NCBI GenBank assembly: GCA_009840005.1
Contig: VXOR01000002.1
Span: forward strand, 1-64,000
Direction: 5' to 3'
DNA: 64,000 nucleotides
DNA from: Gemmatimonadota bacterium
GTDB lineage: Bacteria; Latescibacterota; UBA2968; UBA8231
The notes under the pieces are model-generated. The model had not been told where the DNA came from. It saw only the letters and a list, made by a program, of their open reading frames with translations, and ran no database searches. Shown one piece after another: positions 3,637 through 62,803 of this stretch. Both the position numbers and the translations under genes were made by a program. Positions within the stretch are counted from its first letter, which is position 1. Each line of letters opens with the position of its first letter.

Positions 3637-3663
3637 GTAGGGGTGGTTCGCGAACCACCCTAC
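3637..3663. repeat. Intergenic palindromic repeat, copy 1 (GTAGGG...CCCTAC family)
   Basis: A near-perfect palindrome: GTAGGGGTGGTTCG followed by CGAACCACCCTAC, with one extra G in the left arm. It contains the stop codon of the C39-like gene and separates that gene from the toxin-antitoxin locus. A second copy with the same arms lies at 15276-15305. It could act as a bidirectional terminator hairpin or be a REP-like mobile repeat. Confidence 0.7.
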
Positions 3664-24903: not shown

Positions 24904-24920
24904 GTTCAATAACCAGTGTA

Positions 24921-38030: not shown

Positions 38031-38117
38031 CGGCACTTACTTGACGCTCGATTTAGACAAATCTATTATCCCTTCGCCTTTTCCCACCCTGCTCAAGGAA
38101 GTCAAAGAGATCTACCT

Positions 38118-43240: not shown

Positions 43241-43241
43241 C

Positions 43242-45552: not shown

Positions 45553-46464
45553 CTACTGGTACTGAGCCTTAATCCGCCCCCAGCTCTCCGCTTCCACCGC
45601 GGTGGTCGGTTCGCCCCACTCGATGCCGGGGTCTATGGGTGAGAGGAACACATCGGTCACTGGTCTGCCAGCCGCCCCCCCAGGGCTGGTACTCCACTGG
45701 CCATGGCGATAATCGTCGTCGCCGGTGAGCACATCGACGTCGGTCACCATATTGCCCCAGTGGATGATCTGCCCTTCCTCAAAGTCCCAAACCACTACCT
45801 GATCCTCGGTGGCTTCATCGCTACTTGGCATCTGCGCGATTGGCAGGATGCGGATTTCGTAGATATACGTACTTTCGCCGAACTCCTCGCCCGTAAAGCT
45901 CCAGGCGATTTCGACGTAGCGCGTGCCATTGACCAGCCACGGCAAATTGAGAATGGGCCTAAAGAACTCAAAGGCACCGTCCTTGGGCGGCAGCGCGTAC
46001 TTGTAGTAGAACCCGTTGGCAACATCCCCTTGGTTCTGGTCGTCAATAGCAGTGTGGTCGGCGTTGAGCCCCATCTCGTAGCTGTCGTCCCAGAAGAATC
46101 TGCCCGGATCCTGGCGGTTGGTCACGTGCAAATTGTCGTACACCGAGGTGGTGATGTAGAACATATTCTGGCTATCGCTCCAGCCGAGCAAATGGCGGAA
46201 ATTCATATCGCTGGGATCAATCTCACCCTGCGAGGCAAATTCCAGCGCTCTCCCCTCTCGGGTCGAAGCACCCACCGGATAGGTCGTCTCGGCGAAAATG
46301 CCGTACTGGTCAACGGGAATGGCAGACCAGTCGTCGTCGAATCCGTCGATTACCGGCACATTGGTATCAGGGAACTGCACCGCGAGCAACAGCAAGTCAG
46401 GTGGATCGTGGGCCTGAGCAATAGATGCAATCCCTACCCCTAACACTAGGAACAGTTTCCGCAT
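45553..46464 (-). CDS. Exported CBM9/DOMON-like carbohydrate-binding protein
   Basis: A 303-residue secreted protein. Signal peptide residues 1-18 (ending AQA) are followed by a beta-sandwich resembling CBM9-like domains, with the typical opening VPVIDGFDDDWSAIP, a central YITTSVYDNLHVTN strand and aromatic loops suited to bind a sugar. The terminus TAVEAESWGRIKAQYQ is shared with the unrelated exported protein at 62243 ([12 protein letters not shown]), so it may be a sorting tag. The ATG at 46464 has the near-perfect site AAAGGAGG. The next gene is the ABC sugar-binding protein behind a terminator, so a related function is plausible. Confidence 0.8.
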   Translation of the reverse strand: MRKLFLVLGVGIASIAQAHDPPDLLLLAVQFPDTNVPVIDGFDDDWSAIPVDQYGIFAETTYPVGASTREGRALEFASQGEIDPSDMNFRHLLGWSDSQNMFYITTSVYDNLHVTNRQDPGRFFWDDSYEMGLNADHTAIDDQNQGDVANGFYYKYALPPKDGAFEFFRPILNLPWLVNGTRYVEIAWSFTGEEFGESTYIYEIRILPIAQMPSSDEATEDQVVVWDFEEGQIIHWGNMVTDVDVLTGDDDYRHGQWSTSPGGAAGRPVTDVFLSPIDPGIEWGEPTTAVEAESWGRIKAQYQ

Positions 46465-46619: not shown

Positions 46620-49352
46620 TCACTCCAGCCCCGCGTAAATTGTAATAAACGCCTGCGTTGTATTTATCGCTTGACGCTCTTTGAAGTTTTTGTGCTCCAA
46701 GACGATGCCCGTCAATAACCGGATGCTGTAGCCTTGATAGGCCGACGTATTGGCGAATTGCAGCCCCACCGTCAGGGAATTGAAATCGCTGGAGTCGTCG
46801 TCAAAGTCGTCGAACCACACGTACTCCATCCCCGCCTGTACTTGCGTCACCTCTAGGAGCTGCATCCGCGCCAAGGCACCGAACAATTCCATCAGGCTGG
46901 TGTGCTGGCCCGCCGCAAACAACGTGCGGCTCTGCTTGCGGAACTCGCTTTTCCAACGCGGCTCAACAATCAGCCGACCCAACTCGTACTCGTACCTAGC
47001 CTTGTTGATAAAACCAAAGAAAAAGTCGGTCTCGTCCAGCCCCAATCGCCGCAGTTGCGCCTCGTCCAGCCGTTGGTGGAAATACACGTAGTTCAATTTG
47101 CTCAGCAAAAGGAGCGAGGCCGTCCTCAGACTGTGGCCGACAAAAAGCTGGTTCACCCAAGTGTCGCGTCCCAGTAGCGGATCGTCCAACGGGGTCAGGG
47201 CCCCGCCCCTGATCGTATTGTCCGGGGCCCACTGCAACAGCGGGTTGGGGATGTCGTCCTCCACCCGCTTGGCCATCTCAAAGATCCGCAGGCGGCCGTA
47301 GCGCGGCGACAGCCCATCGTAATTGAGCACCGCGTAGGTACCGTAGTTCTTTTGGTCTGAAGAGATCAGCCCCTCGCGCAATACCCCGGCCATCAGCCGC
47401 AGTTGCGGCGTCAGATATACACCGCCGTACGCGTTGTAGCCCCGATGGTCGCGTCGGTAGGGGTAGTCGGGTTCCTCGTCGTTTTCGTACTGATCGACCC
47501 AGAAATTGTTGTTCATGTCCACCCCGAACAAAAACTCCGGCCGATCGACGCCAAAGCGCATGAAGGGCTCTTCGTAGTCGGGCGTATTGTTGATCTTGAC
47601 CCTATTGTCGTTCTGATTGAGATCCGGCACAAAGTCGTTGTTCTGATCCCACCCTGGGAAGACCTGCAAATCCGGCTGCACCCAGTCTCTGCGGAAGGCG
47701 TCGGGGACCCGGTCTTGGTCGTCGTTATCCTCGACCAGTTCCACGCGGTCCCGGTCGGCACTGTAGTCAATCTGGCCGTTATCCGCAGCGACAAATGCCT
47801 GGCTATTGTAGAAGGGATCCATGCTGTAGGCCTCGCCGTAAAAAAAGAACGGCTCGGCCCGCTTGGACGCGTTCACCATCCAAGCCGGTGCGTTGGGACG
47901 GCCTTTGATGCCCGAAGAAGCTCTGTGCTTATTCTCCAGCACATTGGGATACTTGCGGTAGCTCCAGCTCAGGTCGTACTCGCCGTACAAGTCGAAACCG
48001 AGCACCTCGTTCACTGCAAGCGTACCCCCCAAGATATGGGTAGCCGTGGGCAGGCCGTACTCAAAGCTGATAGTGCGCAAATTGGTCAGATCGCGGATAT
48101 TGCCCTGCGCTTGGTCCACTAGCAGCAGCACCGGATTGCCCGACACATCGAGTTGGTTGTTCGACGTCATCCAGATCTGGTAATCGTTGGCCACGACCAA
48201 GCGGAACTCCACCCCGACGATTTCGCCTACTTCGCCACTGGCCCGGTTGGTAAAATCGGACTGGCCAAAATCGTAGAACAGCCGGATCTCTTCGCTGCCG
48301 TTGGCCGAGATAAAGCCCTGCTCTGTCAGCCCCCCTTCAACCAGTGGTTCTAAGCCTATATCTCTGCCGCGATCGACGCTGCCGTCCCTGTAGGTGATGA
48401 GCACATCGGAGCCGGTCGGGAAAAAGGCCGCCCCACCGACGCCGTCCTCGGGCGAATCGTCGCGCAACACAATCTGGATCCCGGTTATCGCATTCGAGCC
48501 CACGGTCCCGCCTTGGGGCCCTCCGAACAAGCCAGCCGCGGTCACTGCTTGGCTGGTCCCTTGAAAATTTTGCCTCTCGGTCAGTGCACCGGTGATCATA
48601 TTCTTAAAGAAATCCCGATCCGTCAGCGCATTCGCTTGGTGGGCATTCACCATGTGAATCCCCATCTCAGTGAAGTCGCCTACTTGGGCCGTAAAGCGCC
48701 CTCCGAACAAGGTGGTGGCGCTCGTTCTCCGCACCTCGCGTTCCCGGACCCCCCGCGGACCGCTGATGCGCGAATAAATCAGCGTGCCCTCGTATTTGTC
48801 CGAGGCCAAGTCAGCCTGCACCCCGTCCAGCCGCGCCTTGGAAAAGGTCATGGGCGTCAAGGTCGTGCGCAGGTCGCGGCTCACTGTCAGCGCATAGAAA
48901 TACGAACCCTTCTGGTCTGCGGCCACCACCACCCCGGAAAACCATCGGTCAAAACGGCTGGATTGAAATACGACGTTGCCAAATTCTTGCGGCCTTTCCT
49001 GGGACGTATTGTAGACTAGCCACCCCTGATTGATGAAATTGCCGTAGAGATCGTAGAAATAGCTCCCCTCTATATCGGCGTTTATATAGCGCTGGTAGGG
49101 GGAGCGGGCGTAGTTGGTGTATTCCCACTGGCGCCAGCGGTATTCGGCGAAGAGTTCCTGCGGCACGTACCAGCGCCGCACCGCCGGGTCGATTGCGTCC
49201 AACATCCCCTGAGCCCCTTGGGGCCGGAAGTTAGTCGCAGTGCCCTGCCCAACCCCCAAGCGCGAGCCGTAGTCGGGCTGCTGACCCCAAGTCGCCTCTG
49301 CGAGTATGGCTAGGAGTAAGATCCCCCTGAGTATGTTGCGCTGCTGTCTCAA
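46620..49352 (-). CDS. Large predicted outer-membrane beta-barrel protein, paralogue A
   Basis: A 910-residue exported protein. A signal peptide ends near Thr-Trp-Gly-Gln. Alternating aromatic and polar beta strands follow. A central segment rich in D-x-N and D-x-D loops (DNDDQDRVPD, GWDQNNDFVPDLNQND, GVDMNNNFWVDQYENDEEPDYPYRRDH) resembles calcium-binding type-3-repeat loops, and the rest is barrel-like, ending ITIYAGLE. It is homologous along its length to the protein at 54476-57133. I chose TTG at 49352 as start, with GGAG 10 nt upstream and a good signal peptide; TTG at 49388, overlapping the previous stop, is the alternative. It is the last gene of the envelope operon. I do not recognise a named family. 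Confidence 0.75.
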   Translation of the reverse strand: MRQQRNILRGILLLAILAEATWGQQPDYGSRLGVGQGTATNFRPQGAQGMLDAIDPAVRRWYVPQELFAEYRWRQWEYTNYARSPYQRYINADIEGSYFYDLYGNFINQGWLVYNTSQERPQEFGNVVFQSSRFDRWFSGVVVAADQKGSYFYALTVSRDLRTTLTPMTFSKARLDGVQADLASDKYEGTLIYSRISGPRGVREREVRRTSATTLFGGRFTAQVGDFTEMGIHMVNAHQANALTDRDFFKNMITGALTERQNFQGTSQAVTAAGLFGGPQGGTVGSNAITGIQIVLRDDSPEDGVGGAAFFPTGSDVLITYRDGSVDRGRDIGLEPLVEGGLTEQGFISANGSEEIRLFYDFGQSDFTNRASGEVGEIVGVEFRLVVANDYQIWMTSNNQLDVSGNPVLLLVDQAQGNIRDLTNLRTISFEYGLPTATHILGGTLAVNEVLGFDLYGEYDLSWSYRKYPNVLENKHRASSGIKGRPNAPAWMVNASKRAEPFFFYGEAYSMDPFYNSQAFVAADNGQIDYSADRDRVELVEDNDDQDRVPDAFRRDWVQPDLQVFPGWDQNNDFVPDLNQNDNRVKINNTPDYEEPFMRFGVDRPEFLFGVDMNNNFWVDQYENDEEPDYPYRRDHRGYNAYGGVYLTPQLRLMAGVLREGLISSDQKNYGTYAVLNYDGLSPRYGRLRIFEMAKRVEDDIPNPLLQWAPDNTIRGGALTPLDDPLLGRDTWVNQLFVGHSLRTASLLLLSKLNYVYFHQRLDEAQLRRLGLDETDFFFGFINKARYEYELGRLIVEPRWKSEFRKQSRTLFAAGQHTSLMELFGALARMQLLEVTQVQAGMEYVWFDDFDDDSSDFNSLTVGLQFANTSAYQGYSIRLLTGIVLEHKNFKERQAINTTQAFITIYAGLE

Positions 49353-49384
49353 CGCGAACTTTCTCCGGTAAATGGCCGGCCTCG

Positions 49385-51430
49385 TCAATAGGCCACGGCA
49401 ACCAGACCACTGGCCGCTTGGCTGCCCCGGTCTGTATCGAGCGATATTTTGTACACGTATATTCCGGGCGCAACCACTTTCCCCCCTGCGTCTCGCCCAT
49501 CCCACAGGTGCTCAAAAACGCCGCTTTGAGTTCCAGTTCCAGCTACATCTGCCACTAGGCGTCCGGCTAGGTCGAAAATCTGCACCTCTAGCTGCCGCAA
49601 GGTGCCCAAGTTGCGCACATCGTGGGCAATGCGCACGCGGTCGTTGACTCCGTCGCCATTGGGCGTAAAAGTCGGCGGCATCACCCGCAAATCGCTGATC
49701 AGCTCCCCGCCCATGGGCGTGTTGACCGAAAGCACGTCCCCGCCAAAGCGAAAGGTCGCGTTTCCCGCCTTTACCTGCTGCTTCAAGGTCGGCTCGGCGC
49801 TGTTGTAGACCCAGCCGCTGAACTCGGTGCCAAAGCGCAGCACCTTGGCGTCAAAGACCACCTCGACCCGCTTCTCGCTATCTTCTACCCCCTGCAGCAG
49901 TTCAAAGCCCACCACGATGCGATCGTCTTGGATCTCGGGCGGGAAATCCGCCGTTGTGTCCACCCCATCCACCAGCACGGCCCGCACGGCTTCAGCCCGA
50001 GTCTGGGTCGCAATTTCCAAGCGGTCGAACCCGGTATTGTTCTCTTCGAGGAGGGGCCGCACCACATACGTAAAGGTGTGGGGCGCAAAACTCTCCGTCT
50101 CGATCGGCCAGACCTCGGCGATTACGTCCCGGGCCGCCGATTCCTCGCCAAAAAGCAGCGACAACTCGTCGATGCGGGGCGCTTGGTCGCGGTCGGCAGT
50201 TAAGACGATTTCGAGTTGCAGATAGCGGCTCGGCCCGGGCGACATCAGGGCCGTGCCATCCGTCCAGGCTGCGGCCGGCACGGCCTCGTCGCGGAGGCCA
50301 CTAGCAAAGTCGTAGGGGGGCGACCAGGAGTTCCAGTTCTCTGCGTCGATGCTTCTAGTCACGTCGTTGAAAGACCCGGCACTGAACGTCAGGTCGTAGT
50401 TCTTGCGATCGATCTCGACGAAATTGCCCGTTCGCTCAATGCTGAAGAACCGGTTGGGCTGAGGCGTATTGCCGGTGCGGGTGCGCAACTGAATCTGTGT
50501 GCCCTCGGGCATGGCACCGCGCCAGCGGATCTTGCTCCAAGACACCGGATGACCAAAGTCGAGGATAGGCGTGCGGTACTCGGTGTGGGTGACAAAACCC
50601 TCGCCGTAAATCTCGAACTCGGCGATTTCCCAAGTGCGCTCGGGGTCCAAGGGCCGAATGCCAACCCACTTTAGGTCGCGCGTTGGGAAATGGTAATCTA
50701 CTACCACGTCGAGGTTTTCCAGGTTCCGCTCCAAGATATCAAAGGCCGGATCGTTTTTCGCGCCGAGCGCGCGGCTTATGTCTTCGTACCAGCGCTTGCC
50801 TGGGCGGCGCTGACCGGGCAGGTCTACAAAGGGTGCCGTAGCGTCGGCTACGCTAATTTCGTACCAAGCCAAGTAATTGTCCTCAAACCCCGGCCGCGGA
50901 TAGAAGCGAATGCGGTTGATGGGCAACTCGGCCCCTAGGTTGACCACTATATTCTTGACATTGCCTATGTTGACTCCGGCGAGGCGCGGCGAGATATCCA
51001 CGGGGCGCAGCGTCGCTGTTTCGATATTGCCGTCGACGATTGGTTCGACGGTCTTTCTCTCCTCTTTGGTATACCCGATGTGGATGCTGGTGTTGATGTC
51101 GCCTCCCCTCTCGGCAATGGACAGCGACAGGTTTTCCGCAGGATCAATCAAAACCGGCCGCAGGCTATTGTCGGCGAAATCGATCATGACGACTTTGCCG
51201 GAGTCCTTCATCAAAGGATCGGCCACCGGCTCCTGCGGCACCGAGGAGACGGGAAAGACCCCGACGATATTCCCTTCGGCGTCAACTGCCGCGTACTCCC
51301 CTTCTCCGCCTTCGACTAGCTCCTGCCAGACATTGCCTTCAGTACCACCGAGGTGGAACTCCGCCCGGCCCCAAGCCTCGGTGTTAATAAAAGTCCCCAA
51401 TCCGCAGATCATCAGTCCTAGGCGCAGCAT
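49385..51430 (-). CDS. Secreted discoidin-like protein with C-terminal FlgD-Ig-like domain (member 1)
   Basis: A 681-residue exported protein. Signal peptide about 1-20; a discoidin-like segment (NVKNIVVNLGAELPINRIRFYPRPGF); a central beta domain with SKIRWRGAMPEGTQIQLRTRTGN and NWNSWSPPYDF; and a C-terminal FlgD-like/type-9-like domain of about 100 residues beginning PPTFTPNGDGVNDRVRIAHDV and ending with a beta strand (LVAVAY). It is related to the two neighbours at 51443 and 57177, which share the same module order. The start has AAAGGAGG, 12 nt after the previous stop. The C-terminal domain usually marks proteins delivered to the cell surface or outer membrane. Ligands are unknown. Confidence 0.85.
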   Translation of the reverse strand: MLRLGLMICGLGTFINTEAWGRAEFHLGGTEGNVWQELVEGGEGEYAAVDAEGNIVGVFPVSSVPQEPVADPLMKDSGKVVMIDFADNSLRPVLIDPAENLSLSIAERGGDINTSIHIGYTKEERKTVEPIVDGNIETATLRPVDISPRLAGVNIGNVKNIVVNLGAELPINRIRFYPRPGFEDNYLAWYEISVADATAPFVDLPGQRRPGKRWYEDISRALGAKNDPAFDILERNLENLDVVVDYHFPTRDLKWVGIRPLDPERTWEIAEFEIYGEGFVTHTEYRTPILDFGHPVSWSKIRWRGAMPEGTQIQLRTRTGNTPQPNRFFSIERTGNFVEIDRKNYDLTFSAGSFNDVTRSIDAENWNSWSPPYDFASGLRDEAVPAAAWTDGTALMSPGPSRYLQLEIVLTADRDQAPRIDELSLLFGEESAARDVIAEVWPIETESFAPHTFTYVVRPLLEENNTGFDRLEIATQTRAEAVRAVLVDGVDTTADFPPEIQDDRIVVGFELLQGVEDSEKRVEVVFDAKVLRFGTEFSGWVYNSAEPTLKQQVKAGNATFRFGGDVLSVNTPMGGELISDLRVMPPTFTPNGDGVNDRVRIAHDVRNLGTLRQLEVQIFDLAGRLVADVAGTGTQSGVFEHLWDGRDAGGKVVAPGIYVYKISLDTDRGSQAASGLVAVAY

Positions 51431-51442
51431 TGCGGCCTCCTT

Positions 51443-53524
51443 TTAATAAATCACGCCCACTGGACGAGCACTCGCACTCTGGCGCGCGTCGCCGCCCACT
51501 TCGAGACGCACCAAGTAGATCCCAGGCCGAACCAGTTCTCCCACCCCATCCTTCCCATCCCATACCAACTTGGGAAAACGCACGGCGTCGTACACGCCGC
51601 TCTCCCCGTCGAATTCGAAAAGATGGCGCACGCGGCGGCCTGCTAAGTCGAAAATATCCACCCGGACCCGGGCCGTGCCCACTACGGCCAGCACTTCGCA
51701 GGACAGGGCCAAGTGGTCGTTGGCCCCGTCGCCGTTGGGCGTTAGCACGTTGCGGTCGAGGGAAAAACTGCCGATCAGACTGCCCTGATTCACCGCCGGG
51801 CTTAGAACCGTAACTCCGGATCGAGTGGCCTGGTCCGCGTCGGCTAACTGAGCGGCGTCGCCGGCAATAACCCCTTGGAACTCGTCCTCTGCTAGCAGCA
51901 TGGCTCTGCCCGCAAAGGACGTGCTATACGACAACACCCGAGTGACAAAGTGGATTTTCAGCACGGTATTGTCCTCTGCTATGCGCGGAAAGCGCACCGC
52001 GAAACCCACATCCGTCAAACGAGTGATGGCCACTTCGCCTTCTTCCGTCACATCGTCCTGTACGGCAAAGGCGTGGTCGAGCCGCTTTTCGCCTGCTCCG
52101 TCGATGATCTCGATGCGCTCGATGCGGTCCACTCGTTGGACAGTGGCAATTTCGACGCTGTCAAAGCCCTGTAGTCCAGCGTTCTCCATTTCGACTTTCA
52201 GGGCGAAGACAAAGGAAATATCCGTGGCCGCCGGCACTTGGCGCGGGAAGACCTCGCCGACCAAGCGGTCGGCCAGCGGCGGCGAGGTGTAATCGAACGA
52301 GAGATCTTTGAGTACAAAGGCCGATCCCAGATCGTCGCTGAGGAAGTCGACCCGGAACTGGAAGTAGCGCCGTGGCGAGGGCGACAGGATCGGCGTACCC
52401 GCTTCGCTGGTGCCCGCCTCTATGCCATAGGGCGGCGACCAAGGGCTCCAATTCGCCAAATCGTCTCGCACCGGGCCGCGCTCCCAAGCATCGGTCTGCC
52501 CGCCCCTCAGCGGCAGATCGAGGAACTCGTCCCGTAACAAAGGCTGGGATGGGTCTTCCACCGAGAATGGAATTGGCTCGGCGTTTCTCAGACCGACCTG
52601 CTTGCGGGTATAGGAAAGCGGTGAGGGGTCGTCGCCACTGCGGGTGCGGATCTGCATTTGCGCCTTGTCCGCTTGGCCCACTAGTTCCTGTGCCCAGCGC
52701 AACTGGCCCCAATTGGCCGGCGTGCCCATGTCAATGATCGGCGAGATATAGCGCACAGTGGGCAGGAAGCCCTCGCCGAAGATTTGCAGCTTTTCTATTT
52801 CAAACGGAATCGACGAAGTGGCCTTCAAGCGCACAAAGCGGATGTAGCGCGGCGGCGCAACGTCGACTGTAGTGACGGCCTGGGTGTTGTTGTTGCGGAT
52901 TTCAAATATCTCCCAGATTGGATTGCCGCCCTCGGTCAGCACCAGCCCATCGTTGACGTGGACCTCGAAATTCTTGAGAAAATTGCTCTGGAACGGCGTC
53001 ATCGGTGCGGGAAAAACCGTGTTGCGCGGGAAAAAGCGGATCTGGTTGACCCCAAAGCGAGCCCCCAAATCCATGACCAGCAGGGTGCCCAAAGCGTCGT
53101 TCTGCTGGCGCGTGAAGGCCTTGCCCGTGGATTTTTCCGCAGCCACTTGCGCCAAGACCTCTTCCAGTTGCGCTCGGCCGAGATTGACGACCGTCGGCGC
53201 ACTCATGCCGCCGCCGCGCGCGTAGATACCAGTAGCCAGATTCTCGCCTTCGGCCACCTGCCGTGGCAGAATGCTACCGGTAAAATCGGCACTGGCGAAT
53301 TCGACCAAATCGGCCGGTGAGGTGCCGATCTCGGTGAGGTTCGGGTTGAGGGTAGAGCGGTGCTCGGGCTCGATCGTCTCGATGCCCGCCGCGTCCAAGA
53401 CCTGTCCCTCCCACGAGATCTGTCCCTCCCCTCCGAGCCTCAGTACTTGGCGGGCTTGTCCCGCGCTAACCATCAGGATTAGTGCGCCGCATACCGGCCA
53501 TGTAATGTAGTAGAGGTGTCTCAT
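51443..53524 (-). CDS. Secreted discoidin-like protein with C-terminal FlgD-Ig-like domain (member 2)
   Basis: A 693-residue exported paralogue of the 681-residue member 1. Signal peptide about 1-25 ending GQA; a discoidin-like segment (LVMDLGARFGVNQIRFFPRN); an LRWAQELVGQADKAQMQIRTRSG strand pair followed by the NWSPWSPPYG tryptophan motif; and a FlgD-like end beginning RNVLTPNGDGANDHLAL with the terminal strand ARPVGVIY. It lies between the TPR protein and member 1 in the operon, with 3-12 nt gaps. The translation start at 53524 has no clear ribosome site, so coupling with the upstream gene is likely. Confidence 0.85.
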   Translation of the reverse strand: MRHLYYITWPVCGALILMVSAGQARQVLRLGGEGQISWEGQVLDAAGIETIEPEHRSTLNPNLTEIGTSPADLVEFASADFTGSILPRQVAEGENLATGIYARGGGMSAPTVVNLGRAQLEEVLAQVAAEKSTGKAFTRQQNDALGTLLVMDLGARFGVNQIRFFPRNTVFPAPMTPFQSNFLKNFEVHVNDGLVLTEGGNPIWEIFEIRNNNTQAVTTVDVAPPRYIRFVRLKATSSIPFEIEKLQIFGEGFLPTVRYISPIIDMGTPANWGQLRWAQELVGQADKAQMQIRTRSGDDPSPLSYTRKQVGLRNAEPIPFSVEDPSQPLLRDEFLDLPLRGGQTDAWERGPVRDDLANWSPWSPPYGIEAGTSEAGTPILSPSPRRYFQFRVDFLSDDLGSAFVLKDLSFDYTSPPLADRLVGEVFPRQVPAATDISFVFALKVEMENAGLQGFDSVEIATVQRVDRIERIEIIDGAGEKRLDHAFAVQDDVTEEGEVAITRLTDVGFAVRFPRIAEDNTVLKIHFVTRVLSYSTSFAGRAMLLAEDEFQGVIAGDAAQLADADQATRSGVTVLSPAVNQGSLIGSFSLDRNVLTPNGDGANDHLALSCEVLAVVGTARVRVDIFDLAGRRVRHLFEFDGESGVYDAVRFPKLVWDGKDGVGELVRPGIYLVRLEVGGDARQSASARPVGVIY

Positions 53525-53527
53525 TTT

Positions 53528-54463
53528 TTATTTTAGGATATTCCGCAAAAGGCCCTCGATCTCTTCCTCCATGCGCTCGTGCACCTGCGCCGTCCGTCGA
53601 CCGCGTTCGTACGCTGCGAGCGCCTCTAATCCTTCTGCTTCCCTGCCCGTGCGGCCGTAGAGCTTGGCGAGCAAGAAATAGACGCGATAGTCCTCCTGGT
53701 CCAGCGCCCGCAAGCGCTCGAAGCAGACCAAGGATTCGCTGTAGCGCTCCGCGCGAAAGAGTAACCCTCCCAAGCTCCACAGCGCCGACCTCGCTTCGGG
53801 CTGGCGCTCCAACAAATCTCGCAGCAGCTGCTCGGCCTCCACCACTTCCCCTGCTTCCAAGAGCAGATCGGCCAAGCGCTGCCCGGCCTCGTCCGCCCAA
53901 GCGGGATTTTGCAAAAGCTGCCGGTACCCGGCAATCGCCTCCCGGCACTGTCCCTGTTCTGCCCAAAGCTGCGCCAAGCTATAGCGCACCCGAGTGCTAT
54001 CCGGCACCGCTGCGAGCATCTTTCGATACGCTTCCTCAGCCCCTTCCGCATCGCCGGCTACGAGCCGGGCATCTCCCAGCCGTCCCCACAATCCCTCCCA
54101 CGGCTCCCCCGCGGCCAAGAGCGCTTCGTACAGGGCACCCGCCTCCGCGGCTCGTCCCACCGCTAGATACTGATCCGCTAAACCCTTGCGCGCCTGCTCC
54201 TCCTCCGGCCACTGCCGCAGCAACGCGCGGTAGGTGCCAATGGCCCGCTCGTGTTGCTCCTCCTTCCCGTACACTGTGCCCAGCGCGTAATAGGCCTCCA
54301 TCATCCCCGCAGCCGCGGCCTCCTCGTACTCCCGCGCTGCACTGGCCGGCATGTCCTGCGCTTCGTATTCGACCCCCCGTTGGTAGTGCTGTTGGGCGCG
54401 GACCTCTGGCCCGGTTTCACTACAACTCCAAAAGAGCCCTATCCCCAGCAGAATCGGCGCCAC
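53528..54463 (-). CDS. TPR-repeat envelope protein
   Basis: A 311-residue protein with a hydrophobic N-terminus (MAPILLGIGLFWSCSE, a possible lipobox Cys) and about seven tetratricopeptide repeats, such as AYYALGTVYGKEEQHERAIGTYRALL. Translation starts at GTG (54463), only 12 nt after the barrel gene's stop codon, and it is followed by member 2 with a 3-nt gap. TPR proteins commonly scaffold envelope secretion or assembly complexes, a role that fits this operon. No catalytic domain is visible. Lipoprotein status is tentative because the lipobox is weak. Confidence 0.8.
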   Translation of the reverse strand: MAPILLGIGLFWSCSETGPEVRAQQHYQRGVEYEAQDMPASAAREYEEAAAAGMMEAYYALGTVYGKEEQHERAIGTYRALLRQWPEEEQARKGLADQYLAVGRAAEAGALYEALLAAGEPWEGLWGRLGDARLVAGDAEGAEEAYRKMLAAVPDSTRVRYSLAQLWAEQGQCREAIAGYRQLLQNPAWADEAGQRLADLLLEAGEVVEAEQLLRDLLERQPEARSALWSLGGLLFRAERYSESLVCFERLRALDQEDYRVYFLLAKLYGRTGREAEGLEALAAYERGRRTAQVHERMEEEIEGLLRNILK

Positions 54464-54475
54464 CCTGACAACCGC

Positions 54476-57133
54476 CTATTCCAGCCCCGCGTAAATAGTC
54501 ACGAAGGACCGGCTCGTAGTACTAGGCTCGGCTTCCTTAAAATCCCGCCGTTCCAGCGCAATACCCACCAAGGCCATCACTTGGTAGCCGTGGTAGGCCG
54601 ATGTATTGGCAAACTGCAGGCCCACGGTCAGAGAGTTGAAATCGTCGGCGTCGATATCGAAGTCGTTGAAAACCACGTATTCGACTCCCGCCTGCAGCCG
54701 CGTCACCTGTAGGAGCTGCACCTCCATTAGAGTCGAGAAGAGCTGCATTAGGCTGGTGCGCTCGACCGCGTCGAAGAGGCTGCGACTCTGCTTGCGGAAC
54801 TCGCTCTTCCAGCGCGGTTCTAGGACTAACTGGCCCAGTTGGTAGCGGTAGCTGGCCTTGTTGATCAGCCCGAGGAAGAAATCCGTCTCGTCCAACCTCA
54901 ACTCCTGCCGTTTTGCCTGGCCCATCAGTTGGCGGAAGTACACGTAGTTCAGCTTACTCATCAGGTGCAGCGCCGTGCCCTGCAAGCTGTGGCCGACAAA
55001 GAGTTGGTTGACCCAGGTATCGCACGCCAGCAGCGGATCGTCCACCCGCGTTAGCACCCCACCCAAAACGGTGTTGTCCGGCGACCACTGCAGCAATGGG
55101 TTGGGAATATCGTCCTCCACTTTCTTACTCATCTCAAAGACGCGCAAACGACCAAAGCGCGGCGAATCTTCATCAAAGGTCAAAGCCGCGTACACACTGT
55201 GGTTTTTCTGGTCTGAGGAAATCAGGTCTTCGCGCAACACGCCGGCCGTCAGCCGCAACTTAGGGGTCGCGTTGACGCCGCCGTACACATTGTAGCCCCG
55301 GTGGTCTCTGCGGTAGGGATAGTCGGGCTCTTCGTCGTTTTCGTACTGATCGACCCAGAAATTGTTGTTCATGTCCACTCCGAACAAAAACTCCGGCCGA
55401 TCGACGCCAAAGCGCAGAAAGGGCTCTTCGTAGTCGGGAATGATATTGGTCTTGACCAAGTTGTCGTTCTGATTGAAGTCTGGCACAAAGTCGTTGTTTT
55501 GGTCCCAGCCTGGGAAGACCTGAGGGTCACCCGCCTGCCAGTCGGCCCGAACCGTGTCGGGAAAGCGATCTTGGTCGTCGTTGTCCTCGACCAGTTCGAC
55601 GATGCCTTCGCGCTCGCTCTCGTAATTGATCTCACCCGTTCCCAGGGTGACAAAAGTGCTGGTATTGTAGAGGGGGTCCATGCTGTAGACCTCGCCAAAC
55701 ATGAAAAACGGATGGGCGCGCTTGGCCACGTTCACCATCCACGCTGGTGCATAGCGCCGTCCCTCGACCCCCGACGAAGTCCGGTGCGTCTCTGCAAAGG
55801 TGTTGGGGTACTTGCGGTAGTTCCAGTTCAGATCGTACTCGGCGTACAAATCAAACCCCGCCACATCGAGTAACTCTAGAGTTCCCCCAAAAATGTGCGT
55901 AGCCGTGGGCAGACCGTAGGCAAAGCGAATCGTGCGCAGATTGGTCGCGTCCTTGATATTGCCCCTAGCTTGGTCGACCAAGAGCAACACCAACTCTCCC
56001 TGCCGGTTGGTCTGGTTGTTCGAAGTCATCCAGATCTGGTAGTCGTTGCCGACTACTAGTTCGAATTCCACGTTGACAATGGAATCCTTGGCAGCGCTGG
56101 CCCGCTCGATGAAGTCGAGGCTGTCAAAATCGTAGAGCAGGCGGATATCCTCAACGCCCTTGGCCGCGATAAAGCCCTTCTCCACAAAACCGCCTTCCAC
56201 CACGGGCTCAAAACCAATGTCCTTGCCCCGCTCCTTGCGGCCGTCGCTGTAGGTGATGACCACATCGGAACCAGCCGGGAAGAAAGCAGCCCCGCCGACC
56301 TCGTCTTCGGGTGAGTCGTCGCGCAGCACAATTTGCACCAGATCGATCGTCCGGTTTTGCCCCACGGTCAGCAGGCCGGAGAACGGATTCCCAGCCAGCC
56401 GATCCGTCAGCGTATTCGACTGATGCGAATTGGCCAAATTGAAGCCCAGCCGGGCGTACTCGCCGATTTGGCCGACAAAGCGTCCGGCGACCAAGGTCGT
56501 GTTGTTGGTGCGCAGCACTTCCTGGCCGCCGGTCTCGCCCCCACCTGGGCTGCTGATGCGCGAATAGATCAGCGTCGTCTCGTAGCGATCCGTAGCTAGA
56601 TCAAATTGCACCCCGTCCATCCGCGGTTTGGAGAAGGTCATCGGCGTCAGGGTGGTACGCAACTGGCTGCTCAAGGTCAGCGCGTAGGCGTACTCCCCTT
56701 TCTGATCGCCGGCCACCACCACCTCTGAGAACCACTGCCGGAAGCGCTCCGACTTGAACAGGGTATTGCCAAATTGCTGCGGCCGGGTCTGAGTGTTGTT
56801 GAAGATCAGCCAACCGCGCGTGACAAAATTCCCGTAGATATCGTAGAAGTAATCCCCCTCCAGGGCCGTATTGACGTAGCGATCAAAGTGATCGCGGGCG
56901 TAGTTGGTGTATTCCCACTGGTGCCAGCCATATTCGTTGTAGAGCTCCTGCGGCACGTACCAGCGCCGCACCGCTGGGTCTAAGGCGTCCAGCATCACTC
57001 CCGTCCCTTGGGGCCGAAAACTGGTCTCGGCACCCTGCCTGAGCCCGAGACGCATGCCATAGTCCATCTGCGCCTCAGCCATCCCGGCCAAGACGCCAAG
57101 CAACAAGCACAGTGTTAAAAATTTGGCTCTCAC
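54476..57133 (-). CDS. Large predicted outer-membrane beta-barrel protein, paralogue B
   Basis: An 885-residue exported paralogue of the protein at 46620-49352. A signal peptide ends in AEAQ, a strongly conserved N-terminal domain follows (AVRRWYVPQELYNEYGWHQWEYTNYARDHFDRY), then the D/N-rich loops, a barrel-like C-terminal half and a VTIYAGLE end. The D/N-rich central section is almost identical to paralogue A at the protein level and also at many DNA positions, which points to strong constraint or recent conversion. The start is GTG at 57133 with GGGGA upstream. It sits between the 1041-residue secreted protein and the TPR gene, so each large secreted protein type is linked to a barrel. The function is unknown. 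Confidence 0.75.
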   Translation of the reverse strand: MRAKFLTLCLLLGVLAGMAEAQMDYGMRLGLRQGAETSFRPQGTGVMLDALDPAVRRWYVPQELYNEYGWHQWEYTNYARDHFDRYVNTALEGDYFYDIYGNFVTRGWLIFNNTQTRPQQFGNTLFKSERFRQWFSEVVVAGDQKGEYAYALTLSSQLRTTLTPMTFSKPRMDGVQFDLATDRYETTLIYSRISSPGGGETGGQEVLRTNNTTLVAGRFVGQIGEYARLGFNLANSHQSNTLTDRLAGNPFSGLLTVGQNRTIDLVQIVLRDDSPEDEVGGAAFFPAGSDVVITYSDGRKERGKDIGFEPVVEGGFVEKGFIAAKGVEDIRLLYDFDSLDFIERASAAKDSIVNVEFELVVGNDYQIWMTSNNQTNRQGELVLLLVDQARGNIKDATNLRTIRFAYGLPTATHIFGGTLELLDVAGFDLYAEYDLNWNYRKYPNTFAETHRTSSGVEGRRYAPAWMVNVAKRAHPFFMFGEVYSMDPLYNTSTFVTLGTGEINYESEREGIVELVEDNDDQDRFPDTVRADWQAGDPQVFPGWDQNNDFVPDFNQNDNLVKTNIIPDYEEPFLRFGVDRPEFLFGVDMNNNFWVDQYENDEEPDYPYRRDHRGYNVYGGVNATPKLRLTAGVLREDLISSDQKNHSVYAALTFDEDSPRFGRLRVFEMSKKVEDDIPNPLLQWSPDNTVLGGVLTRVDDPLLACDTWVNQLFVGHSLQGTALHLMSKLNYVYFRQLMGQAKRQELRLDETDFFLGLINKASYRYQLGQLVLEPRWKSEFRKQSRSLFDAVERTSLMQLFSTLMEVQLLQVTRLQAGVEYVVFNDFDIDADDFNSLTVGLQFANTSAYHGYQVMALVGIALERRDFKEAEPSTTSRSFVTIYAGLE

Positions 57134-57176
57134 AGCATCCCCATTTCTCAAAGGGTACAGCCGTCGGACCTCTCTT

Positions 57177-60100
57177 CTAATACACCACTGCAATCAGACG
57201 CGACCGCTTTTGTCCCGCCGCCCCGGCCTGATCCGCATCAACCTCTATCTGGGCCAAATAGAGTCCCGGAGGCACCAGCGCACCGTTGTCGTCCCTTCCG
57301 TCCCAAGCAAAGTTCTGTCTCCCCCCCAAGGCCCTCATGGCTACCGTGTGCACCCGCGTCCCGTCTAGACGGAAGATGCGCAGCTTGAGCGACCGGACTT
57401 CATACACTTTGAAAAGCGAGAAGCCAACTTCCGCCACGTCGTTGATGCCGTCGCTGTTGGGGGTGAATGGATTGGGGCTGACCTGCAAATCGTCCACTAC
57501 ATCACCGGCTCCCAAGGCCCCGATCACCAAGCCCTGGCCAGGTCGTATATGGGTAACATCGCCGGGATCGCTTTCCTGCCAAGGGCCCTCAATGGCGCTG
57601 TTGCGCATCGCGGTCTTTAGTTTGGTTCCGTGCAAAAAGACCGCCGCGGCAAAGCGCAGGCGCACCAAACGGCCATAACCCAAAACCCATCCCTTTGCCC
57701 TCCCGAGTCGGTTGTACTGGGCCACACTCAGCGTATCGCCCAGCGAATCGAAGAGCGACTGGTTGCCCACTCCTGTCACCTTGCGAAAATAGCGCACCGG
57801 ACCCCGCTCATCTTCTTCCAAGGCTTCAAAAGTCGCTGCATCTACTTCCTCCAACTGTGCGCCGTCGCGATCAGTTTTGCGGAAGTAGCGGATTGCTCCC
57901 TGCAATTCTTCGTCGAGCCGCTCGTAGGAAAGCAAGTCGAGCAATCGACCGTCCGACCGCGTTGGCACCTCATCCTCCTCGACTAGCAGCCGATAGTAGC
58001 GGTGCGGCAGGACGTCTGCGGACTCACCGCGCTTCACTTGGGGGAAACGCACCTGTAGTGAATCCCCCTGGCTGCGCAGGATCTGCAGTACTGCACCATC
58101 GGCACTGGCCGCGTCCTCTGCTCGCTCTACCGCGAAGAACTGCAGCGGCTGTCCACGGGCGAATTCCTCTTCCGTTCCCAGAGCCACATCCAGCAAACGC
58201 ATATCGAGGCTTGGCTCCGAACTCAGCAGCACCTCGTCGTAACCAGGACTCCGCTCTGAGCGGGGTTCTTCCAGCAAAGTCGGCTGGAGATAAACCTCAA
58301 AGGTATCTACTTGGCCCACGCTCGTCTCCTCCGGCCAGACCTCGGCCAGCAGATTTTGCAGAACTGGACGGTGCATATCGACTTCAATCCTGCGGAGCAG
58401 GGGAGCGACGTTGCGGTCATTGCTGACCAGTTTCGCCTGGAGCTGCATGAATTTGCGCAGACTCGGAGACATCACCCGGGCGCCCGAATGCAAGTAGCGC
58501 TGACTCCAGGGAGTCCAATCCGGCCCGATTACGAACGAGGTGTCAACGGGTCCTGCGCGAAAGCCCGGCAGCTTCTTGTGCTTGTCCGCTGTGACCTCGC
58601 CGCCGCCACTGTCGAAGTAGCGGATGTGCTGCAGCAGTTGGTCCCCGGTGCGCGTGCGAATCTCCACATCGGTACCGGGAGGCAACTCGGCCTCCCAGCG
58701 CACTGACCCCAGCACCACCAATCCGGGCAGTTCGATCGCATCGGATTCGAGCACTACCTCGGCCGGCGATCCTTTGGAGAAGATCATGAACTCCCCAATA
58801 CCGGGGTTGTAGAAACCCTGCGTGCCCGTGTTGCCGGGCGGTTGGTTTTTGAGGGTGATAAATTCAAAAAATCGCAGCTTTATAGGTGGACTCTGCACGT
58901 CGTTGAGCAACGCGTAATACCCCTCATCGATGTTTTTGTCGCGCTGTTTCGGACTAATGAGTTGCCATTTGAGCCGGCCTTGGGCGTCTCGAACTCCCGA
59001 CGAGCCCCGCATGGTATAGCCCCGCACTGTCGGGGCCTGGACGTAGCCTTCGGAGAGGATCCGCATTTGGTCCATCCACACAGTGCCCCCTACATCGGCG
59101 ATCAGGATGTTGTCGTCGGGAACCTCCTCGAGGAAATAGGTGTGGCGATAGAAGGATGCCACTTGCCCATCAAAGGCCTTGCCCGTGCCGCCCGAAGCGG
59201 CGATGGTGTGCTCGATCCCACCACCCGTTTCGAGCATGCCCAGCGCGATATTATCTCCCCAGCCCCAGGCGTCCACTTCGGCCAAGCGCGGCAGTTCCCG
59301 CCGATAATAGACCCTTCGCCCTTGTCGATCCGGCCCCAGGACCTCGTAGGTGGCCTCGTCCACGGGTTCCTCCCGTCCGGCCACATCGCGCACAAAATAC
59401 ACCACATCGCCGCGCTCCCCCTCGGGCAGCGCTTCCCACTCCTCTTGGGTTATTTGCTCGCTTCGGGCCCCGCGGGTGTCCGTTATGGTGATGCGGATGA
59501 CCTCTACCAGCCGGCCCGTCCAGTTGGGATCGGCATTGCCCATGGGCAGCCGCTTCGCCATAAGTCCAGACACATCGGCGGGCAACAAGCCACTGGTGCG
59601 CTCGCTGTCGAACGCGAAGATCCGCTGGTCTTTGTTGACCCCGTCAAAAGGCGCGAAAATCGAAAATCTGAGCTTGCTGTCGTCCCGCACCAAGGGCAAC
59701 TGTTTTTTCTCGAAGAACAGCAGGAACTTGAGGAAGGGGTCGCCCAGTTGCTCGTCGACGAATTGCAGCCTGAGCCGCTCCAGCGGCACCACTCTCCCGA
59801 GGTGTACCTCGATCCACCAGTCGCCGATTGGATCGTCTGGATTCGGTTCCCAGAATGTGGTCGGATCGTCGTCGAGAATGTTGGAGGCCAAGTGCGGGTT
59901 GGAGCCCACCCGGCTAACGCCCGGCCGCACTATGTAGTCGTAGATGAAATTTTTGCTGACGTCTTGCAGGGGGTTACCCAGCACATCTAAGCGCAGGGTA
60001 CTGTCGACGGTTGCAATCCGCGGAGCTTTTTTGTCGATCTCTACCGGGCGCTCAAAATTCCTGTCGTCTAACAGGTTGTAGACTTGGCGCAGTTCGCGGG

Positions 60101-60302
60101 GCCGCACGGCCCCGGAAGCATCTATGGCGGTCAAGTGGCCGGGCCGCTTCCAGTTGACCCAGTGCTGCTCACCTTCGACGACGACTTGGTCGCCGACAAT
60201 ATCGTATCCTTGCTGGGCATTGACCGAACTAGGAGCGCACATTCCGGCCAGCCAGACTGCTGCGTACGTAATCCCCTTACTGAATTTGCGGCTCGCTTTC
60301 AT
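57177..60302 (-). CDS. Large secreted discoidin-like protein with C-terminal FlgD-Ig-like domain (member 3)
   Basis: A 1,041-residue exported protein. Signal peptide ends near VNAQQ. A discoidin-like module (about 110-210) contains DDDPTTFWEPNPDDPIGDWW and RLRLQFVDEQLGDPF. The RWEAELPPGTDVEIRTRTGD strand pair follows, with DWTPWSQRY, and a FlgD-like end (FTPNSDGINDVAEVGF, terminal strand LIAVVY). Two pairs of roughly 30-residue modules with a [YF]-E-x-L-x5-G-x-[VI]-x-[YF]-[FY]-R pattern lie at about 285-337 and 790-842. It shares module order with members 1 and 2. The start has an AAGGAAAA site. It is preceded by the SurA-like foldase in the same operon. Confidence 0.85.
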   Translation of the reverse strand: MKASRKFSKGITYAAVWLAGMCAPSSVNAQQGYDIVGDQVVVEGEQHWVNWKRPGHLTAIDASGAVRPRELRQVYNLLDDRNFERPVEIDKKAPRIATVDSTLRLDVLGNPLQDVSKNFIYDYIVRPGVSRVGSNPHLASNILDDDPTTFWEPNPDDPIGDWWIEVHLGRVVPLERLRLQFVDEQLGDPFLKFLLFFEKKQLPLVRDDSKLRFSIFAPFDGVNKDQRIFAFDSERTSGLLPADVSGLMAKRLPMGNADPNWTGRLVEVIRITITDTRGARSEQITQEEWEALPEGERGDVVYFVRDVAGREEPVDEATYEVLGPDRQGRRVYYRRELPRLAEVDAWGWGDNIALGMLETGGGIEHTIAASGGTGKAFDGQVASFYRHTYFLEEVPDDNILIADVGGTVWMDQMRILSEGYVQAPTVRGYTMRGSSGVRDAQGRLKWQLISPKQRDKNIDEGYYALLNDVQSPPIKLRFFEFITLKNQPPGNTGTQGFYNPGIGEFMIFSKGSPAEVVLESDAIELPGLVVLGSVRWEAELPPGTDVEIRTRTGDQLLQHIRYFDSGGGEVTADKHKKLPGFRAGPVDTSFVIGPDWTPWSQRYLHSGARVMSPSLRKFMQLQAKLVSNDRNVAPLLRRIEVDMHRPVLQNLLAEVWPEETSVGQVDTFEVYLQPTLLEEPRSERSPGYDEVLLSSEPSLDMRLLDVALGTEEEFARGQPLQFFAVERAEDAASADGAVLQILRSQGDSLQVRFPQVKRGESADVLPHRYYRLLVEEDEVPTRSDGRLLDLLSYERLDEELQGAIRYFRKTDRDGAQLEEVDAATFEALEEDERGPVRYFRKVTGVGNQSLFDSLGDTLSVAQYNRLGRAKGWVLGYGRLVRLRFAAAVFLHGTKLKTAMRNSAIEGPWQESDPGDVTHIRPGQGLVIGALGAGDVVDDLQVSPNPFTPNSDGINDVAEVGFSLFKVYEVRSLKLRIFRLDGTRVHTVAMRALGGRQNFAWDGRDDNGALVPPGLYLAQIEVDADQAGAAGQKRSRLIAVVY

Positions 60303-60326
60303 AACGGATTTTCCTTCCGTTGCCGC

Positions 60327-61964
60327 TCATTGCAGGCGGTCGGTAAAAAACACTACCTGAGTTTCGCCTTTGGCCCGCAGGGCTCCGATCAGTTCGACAA
60401 TACCCTCTTGCTCGCGACGCTGTCTCAGCAGGGCCTCCGCCCTTTTCCGCACCCGTTCAAAGGGCAGGGTCTGCCCTCCTTTTCGTCCCAAAACCCTAAA
60501 AACCGCAAAGCCATCGTGCGTCTCCACCGGCCCCACTAGTTCGCCTTCCTCAGCAGCAAATGCAGCGTCAACTAATTGTGGATAGCGGGATCGGAAGAGG
60601 CGGCGCAAAGTCATTTTTCCCGTTCTACCCGGTCCTGCGTGGGAGCCGACGCCCGATCTGTTCATCAGTGCAGACATCTCGGCACCTTGTTCGATCTCCT
60701 CCCGCAGGGACTGAGCTTGCGCTTCTGTCGCCATTAGGGCCTCGCGGATTTCCACCTCCTCTGGGCTGCGGAATTTATTTGCGTTGGCTTGGTAATAAGC
60801 CCGACTCTCGGCTTCTGAGATCGGCTCCTGCAAAGCCGTCTGCGCCTGCACCAAGGTCCGCAGAACCAACCATTCCCGTTTGCGCGCCAACCACTCCGCA
60901 AACTCCGGCTCCCGCTCCCAGCCCTTAGCCCGGGCGGCTGCGGCGAAAAGCCTAGGCCGCACTACCAAGTCCTCTAAAAGATCAACCCCTTGCTGGCCGC
61001 CGGGCAATTCTCCGCCCATCCCCGCTTCTCTGAGCTCGGTCAAACCCTCCCCGAGCGCAATTTTCTCCTTCGAAAAGCTGTATAAAGTCTGGGGCGCTTC
61101 GTCCGGTGCCAGAACGAGATCCCGAATCGGTCCTTGCCGCAGCCGTTCCAGACCTTCGGCGTGCAGGCGCAGCCCGTAACTCTGGCTCAAGAGCTCAAAC
61201 TCGCGCTCTAGTTCCGCTTGCCAAGCCTCGCTTTCCAGCAGACGGTGCACACCTTCCGAGTAGTCGGTCAACTCGGCCTTGCGATCCTCTGCAAAACGAT
61301 AAATCTGCCACGCTCCCGGCAGACGCACTGGTCGAGCCACCCGTCCCTTTGGCAGAGAGAAAAAAGCCGCTCTCGGTACTTTGTACCAGTCCAAGTGGGA
61401 CAGCCCAATCCACCCTACTACCCCGTCTTGTTCTGCCACGGGATCGTTGTCGGCGAAGCGCTGCGCCAATTCGGCAAAGGCCCTGCCTTCCCGCAGTTCG
61501 CTCAGCACTTGGTCGCGCTCCTCTGGGCTCTCCACCACAATGCGACTGAGCAGCCGCTCCCGGTCAAAACCTCGGTCGAGAAAAGCGCGTTCCACCTGTG
61601 CCGCCTCCACTTTTACCCTCGGTGCTACTATCCGCAACTGATAGGTATTGACCAAGCGATTCCTGGCTAACCTTTCGACCGACCCTTTTACAGCCGCGCT
61701 CGAATCTATCCCCTTGGCCCGGGCTTCGTGGAAGAGCAGTTCCCGATCGATCATTGATTGCAGGTACTCCAAATCACCCGCCCGCCCCTCCTGCTCACTC
61801 TGCAGGCTAGCGGGTAGGCGCTCGACAAAACGCCGATATGCACTGGCCCGGATATCCACATCGCCGACCCGAGCAAGTACTGGATCGTCTTTGCCGCACC
61901 CCGCGAGCAATAGCGCGGCTGTAGCTAGACAAAAACCCGATGTGAGCAGCAGGGATCTTTTCAT
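60327..61964 (-). CDS. SurA/PrsA-like periplasmic peptidyl-prolyl isomerase lipoprotein
   Basis: A 545-residue lipoprotein. The signal ends in LLLAGC (Cys23), so it is lipid-anchored. A SurA_N-like chaperone arm comes first (ARVGDVDIRASAYRRFVERLP...ELLFHEARAKGID). Two parvulin-type (PpiC) domains follow, at about residues 150-235 and 400-505; the second has LRRLFRSRYPQLVDAAFAAEEGELVGPVETHDGFAVFRV. Such proteins fold outer-membrane and surface proteins. It is the first gene of the envelope operon, 24 nt before member 3, so its clients are probably the operon's secreted and barrel proteins. A candidate promoter lies upstream at 62032-62058. Confidence 0.88.
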   Translation of the reverse strand: MKRSLLLTSGFCLATAALLLAGCGKDDPVLARVGDVDIRASAYRRFVERLPASLQSEQEGRAGDLEYLQSMIDRELLFHEARAKGIDSSAAVKGSVERLARNRLVNTYQLRIVAPRVKVEAAQVERAFLDRGFDRERLLSRIVVESPEERDQVLSELREGRAFAELAQRFADNDPVAEQDGVVGWIGLSHLDWYKVPRAAFFSLPKGRVARPVRLPGAWQIYRFAEDRKAELTDYSEGVHRLLESEAWQAELEREFELLSQSYGLRLHAEGLERLRQGPIRDLVLAPDEAPQTLYSFSKEKIALGEGLTELREAGMGGELPGGQQGVDLLEDLVVRPRLFAAAARAKGWEREPEFAEWLARKREWLVLRTLVQAQTALQEPISEAESRAYYQANANKFRSPEEVEIREALMATEAQAQSLREEIEQGAEMSALMNRSGVGSHAGPGRTGKMTLRRLFRSRYPQLVDAAFAAEEGELVGPVETHDGFAVFRVLGRKGGQTLPFERVRKRAEALLRQRREQEGIVELIGALRAKGETQVVFFTDRLQ

Positions 61965-62166: not shown

Positions 62167-62242
62167 CCAAGTGCGCTTTTGTAATATATTCTATTCTATG
62201 CTAATCGCATCCCACGGAGGTTTTACCTCAAGGAGGCTCCCA

Positions 62243-62803
62243 ATGTTTGCACTCGCCCCCATTATCCTCTCTGTCCTCGCCGTTTCTACAGCTTGGACCG
62301 ACAGCGAAGTCGAAACTGTCACCCTGCTCACTACGCCTTGGGAAGGCCCCGTCGAGACAGAAGATGCCGCGATTATTTCACCTGAAATCCTCGGCGTGCG
62401 ATTCTATCTAAACGACGAGGGTGAGGTAACTGACTTGCAATTCGAGTTTAGCCTCGTGCCGGATATCACATACTATCGGATTTGGCGAGAAGTCGAGATC
62501 ACTCGCGGCATAGACGAAAACGGCAACGTGGTGACGCTCGAAGAGCCGGCTAGCGAATTTGTTCCTTGGGCGAACGTGAAAGCCGACGAGATAGCAAACG
62601 CCGAGAAGGGCACTGTCATTGTCTCTCCCCTCGGCTTAGTACTAACCGAACTAACCGACTGGGCTATCTCCGCCACTATCGAACGCGAAGGCGCGCTCTA
62701 TCGCTCGCCGCTAAGTTACTTTGATCTACCCTCGTCGCTGCCAACAGCCGTCGAAAGCAAAAGTTGGGGACAGATCAAGTACCACACTATTGCCCCTAAC
62801 TAA
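62243..62803 (+). CDS. Small exported protein with C-terminal TAVE-SWG-IK motif
   Basis: A 186-residue protein whose N-terminus ([19 protein letters not shown]) is a signal peptide. The rest is beta-rich and acidic ([55 protein letters not shown]), suggesting a fibronectin-type or other Ig-like domain; I could not name it. It ends [19 protein letters not shown], sharing TAVE-x2-SWG-x-IK with the CBM9-like protein at 45553. ATG at 62243 has AAGGAGG upstream; the longer frame to 62171 is rejected. It lies 8 nt before fumarase but is not obviously related to it. Confidence 0.65.

Follow-up and report, generated by a model that had tools for sequence, protein, structure and literature searches.

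The window analysed here, a stretch of 64,000 nucleotides (nt), carries at 46620..61964 a cassette of seven genes for predicted envelope and secreted proteins, which belongs to a family of gene sets repeated many times over in related genomes. The first-pass annotation had described seven closely packed genes on the minus strand, and all seven open reading frames (ORFs) were confirmed there. The gaps between genes 1 to 7 are, in order, 24, 43, 12, 3, 12 and 32 nt, reckoned with a GTG start at 57133 for gene 3 and a TTG start at 49352 for gene 7. An eighth cassette gene, SEC8, lies 155 nt past gene 7 on the same strand.

The cassette opens with PPI (60327..61964), a double parvulin foldase of 545 amino acids (aa). 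Its two rotamase stretches (Pfam Rotamase_2, 1.2e-24; Rotamase, 1.4e-15) and its LAGC lipobox agree with the earlier description of a lipid-anchored SurA/PrsA-like foldase in first place. It is followed by FLG1 (57177..60302), a secreted discoidin-like protein of 1041 aa with a FlgD/CHU_C-type C-terminus ending in Tyr, by OMP-A (54476..57133), a predicted outer-membrane barrel of 885 aa, and by a TPR protein of 311 aa (53528..54463). FLG2 (51443..53524; secreted, 693 aa, CHU_C-like C-terminus) and FLG3 (49385..51430; 681 aa) are paralogues with 27% identity along their length. In FLG3 a CBM32-like domain (about residues 95-280) and a beta-sandwich middle precede a domain resembling the C-terminal domain (CTD) of type IX secretion system (T9SS) cargo (574-681). 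OMP-B (46620..49352), a second barrel-family protein of 910 aa, closes the run, and SEC8 (45553..46464) encodes a secreted CBM9-like protein with the C-terminal motif T[AS]VExx[ST]WGxIK and a predicted mature N-terminal His.

Three discoidin/FlgD-type proteins had been proposed at first, and the FlgD_ig/CHU_C-type C-termini bear this out, with FLG2 staying below the Pfam cut-offs of both families (CHU_C 3.6e-5). FLG3 exceeds both cut-offs; FLG1 exceeds that of FlgD_ig (1.4e-6) and falls below those of CHU_C (6.5e-6) and F5_F8_type_C (5.6e-5). TIGR04131 is below cut-off in all three. The FlgD-type protein that was modelled contains a CBM32-like lectin domain and a T9SS sorting domain, with the CBM32/discoidin fold and the CTD beta-sandwich fold, respectively. 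By a strict count that excludes the Phe-ending pattern, a terminal Tyr is present in 137 of the 139 sequences counted.

In the AlphaFold2 model OMP-A is a large beta barrel (predicted local distance difference test, pLDDT, 76.7; predicted template modelling score 0.77) in which residues 123-883 form about 22-24 predicted membrane strands; strand count and sidedness are a reading of the DSSP string from the periplasmic C-terminus and not of the coordinates. So read, the tight turns would be periplasmic and both insertions would lie outside, namely a beta domain within residues 241-407 and an Asp/Asn-rich stretch at 486-610, modelled with low confidence, which by eye looks like a calcium-binding loop. 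Over 101 sequences, the majority residue accounts on average for a share of 0.80 in residues 46-110, 0.77 in 486-610 and 0.74 in 241-407, and for less in the C-terminal half of the barrel (706-885, 0.59) and in the signal-peptide region (0.39). Residues 46-110 are mostly disordered in the model, where pLDDT stays at about 23-40 through residue 100. Since this N-terminal segment is conserved yet unfolded alone, the model suggests that it binds a partner.

Pfam gave no family for OMP-A at E <= 1 and none relevant for OMP-B, with no TonB plug in either; NCBIfam gave no match for OMP-A at E <= 0.1, and a sequence search of the PDB gave no credible match for the barrel. The longest structural alignments include the FimD/PapC and LptD barrels, at a root-mean-square deviation of 5.5-6.7 Å and tied with many other barrels. 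Judged from the model, these matches are generic and the family is without clear assignment. As for the two paralogous barrels of the first-pass annotation, the paralogy is confirmed by 65% identity between OMP-A and OMP-B, and the barrel fold by the model for gene 3.

In the 67 barrel-anchored loci compiled from homologues (L001-L067), 48 complete TPR-family genes lie directly after a barrel. Forty-one of these encode proteins of 638-785 aa with at least five hydrophobic segments, and the other seven, including those of the near-identical relatives L001 and L002, encode TPR proteins of 311-355 aa. Among seven long homologues scanned, five exceeded the PMT_2 cut-off, one fell below it and one had no match. 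The TPR protein of the window is 39% identical to residues 354-642 of the long homologue P0190, and Pfam found no PMT_2 membrane domain in its 311 residues. We therefore read the gene, by sequence comparison, as a putative glycosyltransferase-like/TPR protein that may have decayed in the two-barrel type of cassette and, in the lineage of the window, shed the membrane half. The TPR domain noted at first thus stands, and the scaffold role attached to it gives way to that of a cut-down relative of a longer fusion. The long forms, in their polytopic character and PMT_2 matches, resemble protein glycosyltransferases of the GT-C type with TPR tails, presumably TMTC-like, whereas the copy in the window keeps the TPR half only. 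An Asp-bearing loop motif is unrecognisable in part of the copies: the 41 long proteins have Asp in 17, Glu in 1 and Ala in 3, and 20 were not caught by the pattern (several being VDA by eye).

The strongest result of this study is that the genes form one unit. Homologues of OMP-A are numerous (1014 at E <= 0.001 among 7997 scored), and the exact run PPI-FLG1-OMP-TPR-FLG2-FLG3-OMP was found in 13 of the 67 loci. Among the 34 loci of at least 20 kb, PPI is present in 30, FLG1 in 33, FLG2 in 31, FLG3 in 30, TPR in 30, SEC8 in 26 and a second barrel in 11, as counted on greedy longest ORFs, by which some genes are lost, the L013 barrel among them. With SEC8 so frequent, the original seven-gene boundary ends the set one gene too early. 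Alternative layouts also occur, and many loci have FLG2 on the opposite strand together with a single barrel.

Genome-wide tests were run in three relatives: G001 and G002, each a single contig, and G003, the genome of locus L002. The barrel profile matched 51, 62 and 51 times, respectively, a single protein being in some cases split over two matches. The 41 barrel genes of G001 (at least 190 bits among the matches listed, one weaker match being left out) fall into 28 clusters. Within 12 kb of the barrel, an FLG gene starts in 40 of 41 cases, SEC8 in 26, PPI in 27 and a second barrel in 24; when 15-kb windows with the barrel in the middle are taken, the counts are 40 for FLG, 14 for SEC8 and 24 for PPI. 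Twenty control windows of 15 kb contained no barrel, SEC8 or PPI gene; one had a strong FLG1-type gene (423 bits), one had a TPR match and four had weak FLG matches (31-45 bits, seven of these in two windows). Core genes inside these 28 clusters add up to 358,644 bases, or 6.0% of the chromosome (7.1% if clusters are measured end to end, 6.5% for core genes across all examined stretches).

Across the paralogous loci of G001, barrel distances correlate with those of the partners, with a Spearman rho of 0.79 for FLG1, 0.77 for FLG2, 0.77 for FLG3, 0.72 for SEC8 and 0.60 for PPI (Mantel tests over 22, 24, 22, 19 and 20 loci; 999 permutations; p 0.001 each). Because these loci are paralogues inside one genome, the correlation is not due to species history. 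Conservation of the adjacent set in relatives, on which the first-pass annotation had made its single system depend, is thus seen both in the recurrent order and in this co-divergence. A mere chance run of unrelated secreted-protein genes is ruled out by adjacency, conserved order and co-divergence; we give it practically no credence and regard the unity of the genes as virtually certain.

The nearest loci (L001-L003) are contigs of metagenome-assembled genomes (MAGs) labelled Gemmatimonadetes or Latescibacterota, with a barrel 98% identical to that of the window. By record label, 41 of the 67 loci are Latescibacter- and 23 Gemmatimonad-, and the genomes of three Gemmatimonad-labelled loci (L013, L021 and L045) group in the phylum of G001, apparently Latescibacterota. 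The barrel is present in 39 of the 64 genomes examined from this phylum, a tally of presence and not of copy number with at most 14 candidates scored per genome; one of the 25 genomes without it measures 0.8 Mb. A search from the distant member L085 returned 60 proteins, and the four with an organism name are from MAGs of Latescibacterota (three) and Gemmatimonadetes (one). Distant barrels in arrays of three beside FLG3-like genes (L086:6260-19274 and L087:5515-16375) form a branch of the family that has diverged further. A typical cassette (L011) was also found on a contig of a MAG labelled Woeseia sp., a genome outside the 64; this contig is probably mis-binned.

SprA, PorU and PorV exceed their cut-offs in G001, G002 and G003, and SprA was matched in 63 of the 64 phylum genomes (61 over cut-off). 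Together with the sorting domains, this makes display of the FLG proteins by T9SS likely, and we regard capture by their lectin-like domains as nearly as probable. The role in assembly or anchoring of a surface structure proposed at first is retained as to the unit, the foldase and, given the T9SS genes in relatives, a likely surface display, without the TPR scaffold. As to export route, docking, ligand and import, we infer the following. FLG1-3 would be exported by the T9SS of the cell and would dock, along with SEC8, on the barrel, whose Asp-rich outer loop and inserted domain would provide the contact; the foldase would aid the folding of both barrel and cargo. Each cassette would bind its own glycan-like ligand and hand it on inward, either via the barrel or alongside it, to an often nearby inner-membrane importer, which would be a sugar-type ATP-binding cassette (ABC) importer here and DUF6785 membrane proteins elsewhere. 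We favour this picture, of one copy among many of a set in which lectins displayed by the T9SS dock on a barrel of their own and catch, perhaps import, glycans, with slightly less than even confidence.

The barrel might instead be the exit gate itself, a port of usher or LptD type through which FLG1-3 leave independently of SprA, with the mobile N-terminus recognising the sorting domain. The usher FimD/PapC is a 24-strand barrel with a plug between strands 6 and 7. Like the cassette barrel, FimD/PapC and LptD are large, and they are among its longest structural alignments; however, these are distant, partial in the case of the usher, and shared with many other barrels, no credible sequence match exists in the PDB, and the gene neighbours differ. 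The inserted domain lies, by strand counting, on the long-loop side, unlike the plug site of ushers, and the relatives already possess, in SprA, PorU and PorV, a set suited to the CTD. We consider an exit gate improbable.

CBM9_1 was detected in 11 of 24 members of the SEC8 family at E <= 0.1 (best 2.8e-5), the member in the window giving no match. All 24 aligned sequences have His immediately after the site where the signal peptide is probably cleaved, as placed by eye, and H113 and H137 are likewise invariant; from the sequences alone, these residues are a possible metal site. Directly upstream of the cassette, on the opposite strand, a protein with no Pfam match (62171-62803, plus strand) carries the SEC8 C-terminal motif near its end, and the motif common to both is perhaps a docking peptide.

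Bacteroidota type-B CTD cargo is described as bound by its own PorP-like barrel, a 14-strand protein of the FadL family (PMC9143113), and in F. johnsoniae 9 of 12 genes for type-B substrates are described as adjoining an SprF-like gene (PMC12618676). The cassette resembles SprB-SprF and PG1035-PorP in that CHU_C/CTD-ended cargo is coded beside its own barrel, in several paralogous sets per genome, with SprA, PorV and PorU in relatives; it differs in its barrel, which has about 885 aa and a predicted 22-24 strands, and in its lectin-like cargo, its CBM9-like partner, its own foldase and its 28 clusters in G001. None of the three genomes has a TIGR03519 (PorP/SprF) match over cut-off; the one match below it (G002, 3637922-3638698) lies 18 kb from the nearest barrel among the matches listed. 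Membership of the barrel in the PorP/SprF family is ruled out by this result and by its strand number.

A similar role in an unrelated barrel is another matter: it might serve only as shuttle or anchor for type-B cargo, with lectins that give the cell a hold on tissue, on particles or on other cells, and no import at all. The gene pairing is the same as in Bacteroidota, CBM32 and CBM9-like domains suit adhesion, and the barrel has no TonB plug; several relatives are, by their isolate names, sponge MAGs. Set against this are the different strand number, the lack of TIGR03519 matches over cut-off, and the polytopic neighbours enriched near cassettes and the 28 clusters in G001, which fit uptake better, so that we consider anchoring or adhesion alone unlikely, though the most serious of the rivals.

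Import finds some support in the neighbouring genes. Beyond SEC8, on the minus strand, the window has a sugar-type ABC importer consisting of a solute-binding protein (44186..45469; SBP_bac_1, 9.6e-40) and two permeases (42302..44189; BPD_transp_1, 8.3e-16 and 3e-14), and the same order follows SEC8 in L023 and L041. Polytopic proteins with at least six hydrophobic segments make up 30 of 263 genes near cassettes versus 7 of 224 control genes (p 5e-4). We also compared Pfam families between 155 neighbours of 150-1200 aa, all scanned, and the 124 scanned among 155 control genes, taking the 25 commonest families and reckoning those unlisted for the control as at most one. FG-GAP_3 (18 versus 4, p 0.013), UnbV_ASPIC (13 versus at most 1, p 0.004) and TPR_2 (16/155 versus at most 1/124, p 0.0007) are enriched. 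DUF6785 genes start within 15 kb of a barrel in 16 of 42 cases in G001 and 26 of 50 in G002, where circular shifts predict 6.2 and 7.9 (p 0.001 each; two small G001 matches left out; 41 and 48 barrel starts among the matches listed). Within 10 kb they are in excess in G002 (16 versus 5.5 expected). The DUF6785 family is itself expanded, with 44 matches in G001 and 50 in G002, and we found neither a paper on it nor a solved relative.

The cassette also invites comparison with SusC/SusD, which it resembles in its many paralogous loci, each with a barrel and predicted surface sugar-binding proteins and often with inner-membrane importers nearby. It differs in that no plug was found in the barrel, that its sugar-binding-type proteins have CTD-type ends, and that SusD is almost absent: PF07980 had no match in G001 or G002 and one in G003, where a stop codon interrupts the reading frame (a Bacteroides control was positive), and Pfam shows no SusD partner in the cassette of the window. 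This near-absence, with TonB plugs in the same genomes, is in keeping with parts of another kind filling a role like that of SusCD. One could go further and see in the cassette Latescibacterota's own answer to SusC/SusD, a T9SS-coupled nutrient capture by sorting-domain lectins docked on a large barrel family unrelated to TonB receptors, a dedicated foldase and an ancestral protein glycosyltransferase, taking up about 6% of a genome; this stronger version we think rather doubtful.

Several observations weigh against lectin display coupled to import. The barrel shows neither a TonB plug nor any other element for energy coupling, which leaves active import with no visible motor, and ordinary TonB receptors are present in the same genomes (20, 28 and 28 Plug matches in G001-G003). 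DUF6785 is weakly enriched among the neighbours (9/155 versus at most 1/124, p 0.05) and shows no excess within 10 kb in G001 (6 versus 4.4 expected); the 30 polytopic neighbours include some PMT_2-like/TPR proteins, short of the TPR threshold, which are not importers, and no glycoside hydrolase is among the 25 commonest neighbour families. On the side of export, SprA is also found in 24 phylum genomes that have no barrel, in FLG1-3 the curated cut-offs are missed by several CHU_C and discoidin scores and by every TIGR04131 score, and the GldL motor family had no match in a search that gave none anywhere. Taken by itself, import of the ligand is a close call on which we lean slightly to the negative.

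The many paralogues could also reflect an S-layer, gliding or other structural coat, varying under antigenic or phage-driven pressure and not by ligand. The calcium-binding look of the Asp-rich loop, the high rank of SlpA/SDBC S-layer barrels in Foldseek and the PMT_2-like/TPR protein after the barrel in many loci, which suits glycosylated coats, are in line with this idea, whereas TM-scores to SlpA/SDBC are 0.21-0.26 and neither CBM32 and CBM9-like domains nor linked importers would be expected; we hold a coat to be at least as improbable as an exit gate.

In the open-licence literature we found no paper joining T9SS and Latescibacter-, and the cassette matches no described system found there. 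The 2015 Latescibacteria genome paper describes uptake by non-specific porins, and of B12 and iron via TonB-dependent receptors (PMC4454575); a demosponge survey reports glycoside hydrolases enriched in, among others, the Latescibacteria class UBA2968 (PMC8163846). Occupying 6.0% of the genome in one relative, this surface system could account for the way in which an uncultured phylum of wide distribution obtains food or attaches itself. If the favoured reading is true, T9SS-linked surface display extends beyond Bacteroidota, a barrel family with no known relatives gains a testable set of partners, and the problem that SusCD solves has a second solution.

Three other loci of the window deserve mention, all on the minus strand. 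About 7.5 kb beyond SEC8, 35428-38036 encodes an UnbV_ASPIC/FG-GAP protein and a TPR protein, of families enriched near G001 cassettes. A C39-like peptidase with a FlgD/CHU_C-type C-terminus (3660-6104; both below cut-off) is perhaps another T9SS cargo. A protein of 1725 aa, encoded at 19732-24909, joins a DEAD/Helicase_C helicase to one of the UvrD type; its gene adjoins an AAA_14/DUF4143 gene (24921-26297).
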